A stretch of 64,000 bases of DNA, taken from assembly GCA_945949045.1 (NCBI GenBank), contig CAMFDG010000006.1:1-64000 (forward strand), given 5' to 3'. The translations under genes and the position numbers were made by a program. The stretch's first letter is position 1, and every line of letters begins with the position of its first letter. This document shows positions 6,055 to 18,230 of this stretch, in pieces. Source of the DNA: an uncultured Lachnospiraceae bacterium. Lineage in GTDB: Bacteria > Bacillota > Clostridia > Lachnospirales > Lachnospiraceae. The notes under the pieces were generated by a model that was given only the letters and a program-made list of their open reading frames with translations, searched no databases and was not told the origin of the DNA.

Positions 6055-7887
6055 ATGTTTATGAATTATAACCAGTCTCAGCAGGAGGCCATCCGTCATC
6101 AGGATGGCCCGATGCTTGTCCTGGCGGGTCCCGGCTCCGGGAAGACCGCTGTTATTACCCAAAGAACGGTCAATTTAATAGAAAATGGCATTGAACCCTC
6201 CCATATTCTGGTGATTACCTTTACCAGGGCGGCAGCCATGCATATGAAAAGCCGTTTCCTTCAGGCTGTGGGACAGGAGCGCTGCCCGGTCACTTTCGGG
6301 ACCTTTCATGCGGTCTTTTTCCAGGTGTTGAAGCTGGCGTATCACTATGACAGAAGTAATATTATTTCTGAGGAGACCAGGTACAGGCTGATGCGGGAAA
6401 TTCTTTCTTACCAGCATCTGGAGTATGAGGACGAAAAGGAATTGATCGCAGATCTGCTGGGGGAAATCAGCAGAGTGAAAAACGAACAGATTCCGTTGGA
6501 ACACTTTTATTCCAGCCATTGCGGGGAGGAGGTCTTTCGGAGCATTTACCGGGAATATGAAAGAAAACTGCGGGAAAACCGCCTTTTAGATTTCGATGAT
6601 ATGCTGGTCTATACCTATGAGCTGTTTTCTCAGAGACCGGATATTCTGTCGGCATGGCAGAAGAAGTACCGTTACATTCTGATCGATGAGTTTCAGGATA
6701 TCAATGGCTTACAGTGGGAAATTATGAAAATGATGGCGGCACCGTTGGACAATCTGTTTGCCGTAGGAGATGACGATCAGTCCATATACCGATTCCGCGG
6801 ATCGAAACCAGAAATTATGCTTGGATTTAACAAGGCCTACCCTCATGCAAAAATCCTCCGCCTGAATGTCAATTACCGCTGTGCTTCCTCCATCGTGACG
6901 GCGGCCGGAAAACTGATTTCCGGCAATGAGGAACGATTTGCAAAGGATATGAAAGCTGATTTTATCAAAGAGGATGCAGTGGAGTTCAGGCTCTTTGAGG
7001 ACGAGAAACAGGAGAATGCTTTTGTGACGCAGGAAATCATACAATCCCATGAAAAAGGGGTGCCCTACCGGGAGATGGCCGTGCTTTTTCGAACCAATCT
7101 GCAGCCGGGGCCTTTGATGGAGCAGCTCCTTTCCCGCAATCTGCCCTTTCGGGCGAAGGATAAGATTCCGAATATCTATGAACACTGGATTGCAAGAGAT
7201 CTTTTTACCTATATCCGTATTGCTCGGGGAAGTAATCGAAGAGAAGATTTCCTTAGCATTATGAATAAGCCGAAGCGCTATATCGGAAGGGACAGCCTCT
7301 GTGAAGGGACGGTGTCCTTTGAGGAGTGGATACGGATGTATGATGAGCAGCCCTGGATTGCCGAGAGAATCGAAAAGCTCTGGTGTGACATAAAGCTGAT
7401 TGCAGGCATGAGTCCTTATGCGGCTGTCAATTACATCAGGAGGGGCATCGGCTACGATGACTATATTGCGGAATACGCGGATTACCGGGGAATAAAGAAA
7501 GAGGAACTGTACGAGGCAGCAGATGAGATTCAGGCCGGTGCCAGAGGCTTTCGGACCTTTGAGGAGTGGTTTTTGCATATCCAACAGTACACGAAACAGC
7601 TCAGTCAGATGGTGCGGCAGGAACCTGCAGCCGGGGATTCCGTGGTGCTTTCCACCCTGCACAGCGCAAAAGGGCTGGAGTTTCGCCAGGTATTTCTGAT
7701 TGATGTCAACGAGGGAATGATGCCTTATAAGAAGGCGGTCTTAAAAGAGGAAATCGAAGAGGAGAGACGTCTGTTCTACGTGGGAATGACGCGGGCCAGG
7801 GAAAGACTTGTGCTTTGTTCGGTAAAGAAGCTTCGCGGGAAGGAAGCAGAACCTTCCCGTTTCATCCGCGAAGCCGGTACATACTGA
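6055..7887 (+). CDS. UvrD/PcrA-like ATP-dependent DNA helicase (superfamily 1)
   Basis: 610 aa; LAGPGSGKTAVITQRTVNLI, LIDEFQDINGLQWEI, VGDDDQSIYRFRGS, STLHSAKGLEFRQVF, VGMTRARERL. Confidence 0.9.
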   Translation: MFMNYNQSQQEAIRHQDGPMLVLAGPGSGKTAVITQRTVNLIENGIEPSHILVITFTRAAAMHMKSRFLQAVGQERCPVTFGTFHAVFFQVLKLAYHYDRSNIISEETRYRLMREILSYQHLEYEDEKELIADLLGEISRVKNEQIPLEHFYSSHCGEEVFRSIYREYERKLRENRLLDFDDMLVYTYELFSQRPDILSAWQKKYRYILIDEFQDINGLQWEIMKMMAAPLDNLFAVGDDDQSIYRFRGSKPEIMLGFNKAYPHAKILRLNVNYRCASSIVTAAGKLISGNEERFAKDMKADFIKEDAVEFRLFEDEKQENAFVTQEIIQSHEKGVPYREMAVLFRTNLQPGPLMEQLLSRNLPFRAKDKIPNIYEHWIARDLFTYIRIARGSNRREDFLSIMNKPKRYIGRDSLCEGTVSFEEWIRMYDEQPWIAERIEKLWCDIKLIAGMSPYAAVNYIRRGIGYDDYIAEYADYRGIKKEELYEAADEIQAGARGFRTFEEWFLHIQQYTKQLSQMVRQEPAAGDSVVLSTLHSAKGLEFRQVFLIDVNEGMMPYKKAVLKEEIEEERRLFYVGMTRARERLVLCSVKKLRGKEAEPSRFIREAGTY

Positions 7888-7897
7888 GTGGTTATAT

Positions 7898-8233
7898 AAA
7901 CTTCCCGCACTGACTTCCGCAGCGGCGCCCCTCTATGACAAACGCTCGATTTATTCCGAACCGTGTGTGAGTTAATGCCTTCATCCACTGATTGAACATC
8001 GGCCCATGCAAAATTTGCCTTCGGCAAATGGGCCGACGCTGCATGACAGGTTTTCCATGAAAACCTGTCACATTTAAAGTGGGCACGGGAAATACACGTT
8101 CAAGCGTAGCGCGTTTGTATTTCCCGTGCCTGATAAACTCTGTGGATGGAGGCATTTACTCGCACTAGGTGCAGGAATCATGAGAGCGTCTGTCATAGAG
8201 GGGCGCCGCTGCGGAAGTCAGTGCGGGAAGTTT
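7898..8233. repeat. 336-bp branched inverted-repeat element (long outer stem enclosing three hairpins)
   Basis: 7898-7947 is the reverse complement of 8184-8233 (49/50). Further partial pairing includes atgccttcatcca (7975-7987) with tggatggaggcat (8143-8155). Inner hairpins at 8000-8035, 8044-8070 and 8082-8130. Confidence 0.9.
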
Positions 8234-8255: not shown

Positions 8256-8573
8256 TTACATTTCGTCAAACATTTCTTCATCTAACAGCTCATCGAAACG
8301 GTCTGCAGCAATTTCGTATTCTTCCTCGTCCTCAATGAAGCCGATCTGGGGCAGACCCTCCTCATCCTCTGCATAGCGGTAGAGATAGACCTCTCCATCT
8401 TCGTTGTCGTTGCCCTCGCTGTCCAACGGCATAAGGGCGATGTAATCCTGCTCACCTGCCTCAAAGATTGTGAGAATACGGCATTCGACCTCACCGTTGT
8501 CCAGCTCCAGGCTGACACGGATATCCTCGATCTCATCCGGGGTCACAGGGGTTGCTTTTTCTTGTTCAGACAT
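8256..8573 (-). CDS. DUF1292 domain-containing acidic protein (YrzB-like)
   Basis: 105 aa; VECRILTIFEAGEQDYIALMPLDSEGNDNEDGEVYLYRYAEDEEGLPQIGFIEDEEEYEIAADRFDELLDEE typical of DUF1292. Confidence 0.88.
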   Translation of the reverse strand: MSEQEKATPVTPDEIEDIRVSLELDNGEVECRILTIFEAGEQDYIALMPLDSEGNDNEDGEVYLYRYAEDEEGLPQIGFIEDEEEYEIAADRFDELLDEEMFDEM

Positions 8574-18189: not shown

Positions 18190-18230
18190 ACTATTCAGAA
18201 CCCCATATATGAGGAGGGGTTCTGAATAGT
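18190..18230. repeat. 15-bp perfect intercistronic inverted repeat between flgB and flgC
   Basis: actattcagaacccc (18190-18204) / ggggttctgaatagt (18216-18230), 11-nt loop, no downstream T run. Confidence 0.85.

Follow-up and report, generated by a model that had tools for sequence, protein, structure and literature searches.

Bacterial MITEs, among them RUP, Correia/NEMIS and Nezha, are non-coding elements with terminal inverted repeats, dispersed intergenic copies, target duplication and a transposase presumably acting in trans (PMC3049150, PMC2229807). BOX elements of streptococci range from 67 to 637 bp, are built of modules, some of them optional and self-folding, and are structured if transcribed (PMC3049150). 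ERIC/IRU sequences of enterobacteria are imperfect palindromes in transcribed intergenic DNA with a reported effect on mRNA stability (PMC2229807). REP/REPIN units associated with RAYT are extragenic, hairpin-forming repeats that spread within a genome (PMC3116915).

Here we describe a 336-bp palindrome from an uncultured Lachnospiraceae bacterium, located in a 64,000-nucleotide stretch of DNA (the window), that resembles each of these systems in part. We consider it likely that the palindrome is a non-autonomous, MITE-like mobile giant hairpin of gut and rumen Lachnospiraceae, termed family A. No description of this element family was found in the open-access literature searched, and it is apparently undescribed. 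With bacterial MITEs it shares non-coding sequence, terminal inverted repeats, dispersed intergenic copies and, probably, a target duplication and a transposase supplied in trans. Unlike those elements, its arms run nearly to the center to give a hairpin of up to ~500 bp, its core covaries across genera, and a partner IS was not found. RUP is reported to target TA (PMC2229807), whereas the element described here probably duplicates 8-10 bp. The comparison with BOX covers the modular layout; in BOX the optional boxB module is tandem and proper to BOX, whereas the inner module here, B, is an independent family nested in A. In contrast to ERIC/IRU, which measure ~127 bp, the host belongs to the Lachnospiraceae, and a search of 5,426 E. 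coli genomes gave no match.

Architecture of the palindrome

Between the outer arms of the element (7898-7947 and 8184-8233), 49 of 50 positions are reverse-complementary, a figure reported by a first-pass annotation of the window and reproduced when recomputed. The three inner hairpins noted at that time are also present, at 8000-8035, 8044-8054/8060-8070 and 8082-8096/8116-8130. As originally described, the element nearly fills an intergenic gap and has no real ORF: the stop codons of a helicase gene and a DUF1292 gene are 368 bp apart, of which the element takes up 336, and no plausible gene was found inside it. The MFE of the palindrome was -229 kcal/mol on the plus strand (z -23.0) and -223 kcal/mol on the minus strand (z -23.4), and none of 100 shuffled sequences folded as well. 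The whole window holds 36 inverted 14-mer seeds spaced at most 450 bp apart, versus a mean of 0.15 in shuffled windows, and 32 of the 36 fall in the element. A chance palindrome is ruled out by this excess and by folding z-scores of about -23. The sole other sites in the window with such seeds, at 18190 and 45938, are possibly ordinary terminators. Features of the locus are listed in Table 1. Judging from the offset of flanking repeats, 2-3 extra bases on either side of 7898-8233 probably belong to the element as well.

Table 1. Features of the family-A element and its flanking genes, in window coordinates.
Feature	Position	Strand	Basis
UvrD-type helicase gene	6055..7887	+	Pfam PF00580, PF13361; stop codon 10 bp ahead of element
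Family-A element, whole	7898..8233	+ (orientation set by core)	Copies, end motif, near-empty gap in relatives, flanking-repeat offset
Left terminal repeat, AAACTTCCCGCACTGA	7898..7913	+	42 genome sites vs 0 in control; AAACTTCCC end in G066, G092, G152
Rest of left arm, differs among copies	7914..7942	+	Arm comparison; lengths of L004 vs window copy
Conserved A core, left half (CGCTCGATTTATTCC...ATGCCTTCATCCACT)	7943..7991	+	Core alignment, covariation
Nested repeat B, double hairpin (8000-8035 + 8044-8070)	7992..8075	+	About thirty separate or tandem copies in host genome; missing from A copies on C21, C4, C1, C59
Conserved A core, right half, with apical hairpin and TTTACTCGCACTAGGTGCAGGAATCATGAGAG	8076..8189	+	Core alignment, covariation
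Apical hairpin of A, invariant loop motifs CGTTCAAGC, GCGCGTTT	8082..8130	+	Invariant or covarying in 39 cores
Rest of right arm, complements left arm, equal loss	8190..8217	+	Arm comparison
Right terminal repeat, left one inverted	8218..8233	-	End-motif scan, size series of copies
DUF1292 gene, convergent	8256..8573	-	Pfam PF06949; stop codon 22 bp beyond element

The inner hairpins had been read as limbs of a closed multi-arm junction, a design thought to exceed what a terminator needs. The hairpins are real, but branching is not the native architecture: the junction arises because a second repeat, B, nests in an internal loop of A, and with this the argument from complexity is lost. Repeat B accounts for two of the three inner hairpins of the window copy. 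Family A itself consists of the outer palindrome and the apical hairpin and, when free of B, folds as an unbranched rod. Copies of A lacking B lie on host contigs C21, C4, C1 and C59, and B occupies an identical position in the copies on C6 (the window), C11 and C8. The A+B composite recurs at two other loci, which indicates spread or conversion once B had nested in A; gene conversion could also account for its presence at the three loci.

In its own right, repeat B is a family of 80-87 bp double hairpins, single or in tandem arrays with as many as three units, present in at least the host genome (G000), G005, G009 and G010. Stems of B vary among loci with complementarity kept (L175, L177, L178, L031, L036). 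In the relatives G005 and G010, variants of B (L043, L044, L050) have an additional short hairpin (GTGATACATCGAAGATGTACCAC or a similar sequence) separating the usual two.

Dispersed copies and insertion

A sequence search of the host genome yielded 64 pieces belonging to the two repeat families. The end motif of A, AAACTTCCC(A/G)CACTGATTTTCG, occurs at 42 sites in this genome versus none for a reversed control, and a looser form at 68 sites in the relative G066 versus 3 in the control. The AAACTTCCC end also closes elements of G092 and is found in G066 and G152. In G152, a member of another genus, a 210-bp hairpin (L293, C69:5739-5948; also L294) has AAACTTCCC ends and a different interior. 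Hairpins with these ends and a different interior suggest a superfamily defined by its ends. Insertion of A into the loop of an older terminator was considered and dropped, as dozens of sites show AAACTTCCC to be the terminus of the element itself.

Complete host-genome copies have common ends and measure 34, 55, 72, 105, 129, 203, 262, 336, 363, 370, 388, 507 and 509 bp, the last two being the longest. In other species, the core measures 163-198 bp and is enclosed by arms of ~160-190 bp, with bulges specific to the left or right side being conserved. The window copy minus B is 252 bp long and thus, by length, ~128 bp short per arm relative to the copy on C21; the junction of this loss is identical on left and right. 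Host contigs C1, C15, C18, C32, C33, C39, C43, C49 and C78 start or stop within element copies. The true copy number therefore exceeds the number counted, and the element fragments the assembly, with at least nine contigs affected. The first-pass annotation had named a single genomic copy, or hairpins without covariation, as what would reduce the palindrome to an accident or a simple terminator. The 64 pieces found here, relatives in other Lachnospiraceae genera and the strong core covariation described below leave the element standing.

The helicase/DUF1292 arrangement is kept across the genus. Of 28 relatives measured, 21 have a gap of no more than 53 bp between these genes, with only 12 and 24 bp in the nearest, G066 and G005, versus 368 bp in the window; the element at this locus is therefore an insertion. 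For a second copy (C14:40265-40526), the empty site is preserved cleanly in G005, where 19 bp separate a stop codon from the next start codon, and insertion of this copy between the tandem genes left the ribosome-binding site intact. The search for empty sites proposed at the outset was thus successful at both loci. Direct repeats of 10, 8 and 7 bp flank 3 of 16 complete copies at a distance of 2-3 bases from the ends, and a permutation test of 8-9 bp repeats at an offset of 2-3 gave p < 0.001, with length and offset picked after inspection. Candidates for the target-site duplications anticipated earlier are thus clear at these three copies only; the window copy is flanked by GGTTA on both sides and nothing longer, a weak candidate. 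We regard a target duplication of 8-10 bp as probable, and flanking repeats of about this length suggest a DDE-type transposase.

Candidates for an autonomous partner were sought in the host genome, which is 80% complete. None was found around ten end-motif sites, nor were end-motif pairs 0.7-4 kb apart with a transposase; these sites and the wider pairs are surrounded only by ordinary genes, 34-bp mini-hairpins and other hairpins. The element is nonetheless short, non-coding and dispersed in many copies, has terminal inverted repeats common to those copies, and is demonstrably inserted where empty sites exist. Together with the probable 8-10 bp duplications, these properties support the MITE form of the non-autonomous mobile palindrome originally proposed.

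The covarying core and its distribution

Across 24 aligned cores, 95.4% of cells are paired, versus 84.9% in shuffled data and 28-50% with partners slid. Covariation, a check called for in the first pass, is evident in 27 of 47 core pairs, which have changed on both sides. Invariant columns number 51, many of them unpaired. This conserved, covarying core goes beyond MITE requirements. In core stems, G.U outnumbers A.C by 26 to 11 (p 0.02, from sequences that are not independent), which hints that RNA made from the core strand is functional. The arms, by contrast, contain equal classes (G.T 88, A.C 86), and therefore nothing there points to one RNA strand. The structured ncRNA suggested earlier may thus apply to the core, with the arms adding no RNA-strand signature.

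A core-motif scan of GTDB genomes found 28 loci, confined to Lachnospiraceae, Eubacterium-labelled strains and unnamed Clostridiales/Eubacteriales/Bacillota MAGs. A trimmed covariance model of the core was used for searches of the family and order. Of 397 family genomes sampled, from 334 genera, 5 contained the core, representing 5 genera; in a sample of the order, it was detected within Lachnospiraceae only. Relatives of ~500-600 bp are spread over several Lachnospiraceae genera, with Lachnospira eligens among the carriers. Named carriers are L. eligens ATCC 27750, with the hairpin around NC_012780.1:317601-317957, L. eligens FDAARGOS_1570 and, for the core, Agathobacter rectalis DFI.5.28. 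A patchy range combined with many copies in each carrier is in keeping with a mobile element. A copy in G016 (L033) is nearly the same as that of A. rectalis DFI.5.28 (L236). A phage origin was rejected, there being no match in 50,697 phage records. A known RNA family was likewise ruled out, as Rfam 15 gave no relevant match at or above the gathering threshold for the window and 12 further loci. Residence of an Rfam-absent covarying core in culturable gut bacteria (L. eligens and A. rectalis) makes transcription, mobility and effects on neighbor genes testable.

Matched arms, gene ends and mechanism

Over the first 34 arm positions, compared without gaps, the two arms of one copy agree at 96% (G000) and 97% (G066), versus 60% and 69%, respectively, for the same arm across copies. 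Entire arm blocks vary among copies, yet the two arms of any one copy correspond and have symmetric losses, as expected if one arm were copied from the other during replication. Template switching, a mechanism proposed for RNA hairpins, can generate compensatory multi-base changes and perfect stems in one event (PMC8794818), and may keep the arms matched in the same manner. It was described for the stems of RNA genes, whereas here its substrate would be a dispersed element whose arms reach ~185 bp. The family provides a natural series in which template-switch repair and the symmetric deletion of palindromes can be studied. In bacteria, long palindromes generally lack stability, as known from work in E. 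coli; despite this instability, hairpins of up to ~500 bp persist here in many copies.

Most host-genome copies begin 0-35 bp past a stop codon. By neighboring genes, 11 are in tandem, 4 in convergent and none in divergent settings. In other species the median gap is 6 bp at the gene 3' side versus 72 bp at the 5' side, with ORFs called mechanically. Either gene ends are targeted or only such insertions survive. The element could plausibly act as a transcript-end hairpin.

Other readings of the core are conceivable. It is possible, though unlikely, that its invariant bulges and loops are read by a non-Y1 protein or act as RNA, the folded nucleic acid being the working form and the arms varying freely because only pairing matters. 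If true, this would make the family a new kind of mobile structured element and not an ordinary MITE. We are more doubtful still that the core is a functional RNA under selection, whether within a 3' UTR or as a small RNA of its own, with dispersal being secondary. Strong covariation, the many unpaired invariant columns, the excess of G.U over A.C and a location in probably transcribed 3' regions all favor such an RNA. They are countered by the core's restriction to so few sampled genera, by arms free of strand bias, by many host-genome copies that are entirely core-less, and by neighbors that are fixed neither in identity nor in orientation (5 on the same strand, 7 on the opposite one).

Position at gene ends also bears on the proposal, which we judge very improbable, that the family comprises unusually large bidirectional terminators, spread by recombination and retained for ending transcription. 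Copies lying few bases past stop codons include terminator-like hairpins of 34-72 bp, and element ends read AAAACTT...AAGTTTT. However, although a G+C-rich stem is present, a T-run of just TTTT casts doubt on a classic terminator, and a terminator scan returned weak sites only, none convincing at the ends. Flanking direct repeats and empty sites indicate insertion, the C14 copy sits between tandem genes with the downstream ribosome-binding site spared, and the conserved core is left unexplained. The bidirectional terminator of the first-pass annotation may describe an effect of copies that abut stop codons. Least credible is a REP/BIME or IS200-like element moved as a single strand by a Y1 transposase: the element is indeed palindromic, extragenic and repeated, with a hairpin bearing conserved bulges, but it is far larger than REP units, its probable target duplication is unexpected for a Y1 mechanism, and Y1_Tnp (RAYT) was missing from six of seven carrier genomes searched (G000, G066, G016, G048, G014 and G260) and present once, in G092, which disfavors the REP form of the palindrome first envisaged.

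For the MITE-like mobile hairpin that we prefer, comparison of copies suggests the following course. A complete family-A element is one giant, near-unbranched hairpin of ~500-600 bp with ends of approximately TAAAACTTCCC, its arms variable yet self-complementary and its core composed of conserved bulged stems. A transposase acting in trans, probably of DDE type given that insertion seems to duplicate 8-10 bp, would place the element a few bases past a stop codon, where it would be tolerated and probably give transcripts a 3'-terminal hairpin. Replication slippage may then shorten the element symmetrically, while arm-to-arm template switching would hold its arms matched as they drift from other copies. 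The window copy has lost ~128 bp per arm and carries the independent double hairpin B within an internal loop. In a separate 203-bp copy (L172, G000:C7:53450-53880), the interior contains three ~33-bp direct repeats (GGCAGGGTTCTCTGAGAATGGACCGTGAAGGCC), an asymmetric expansion inside the palindrome.
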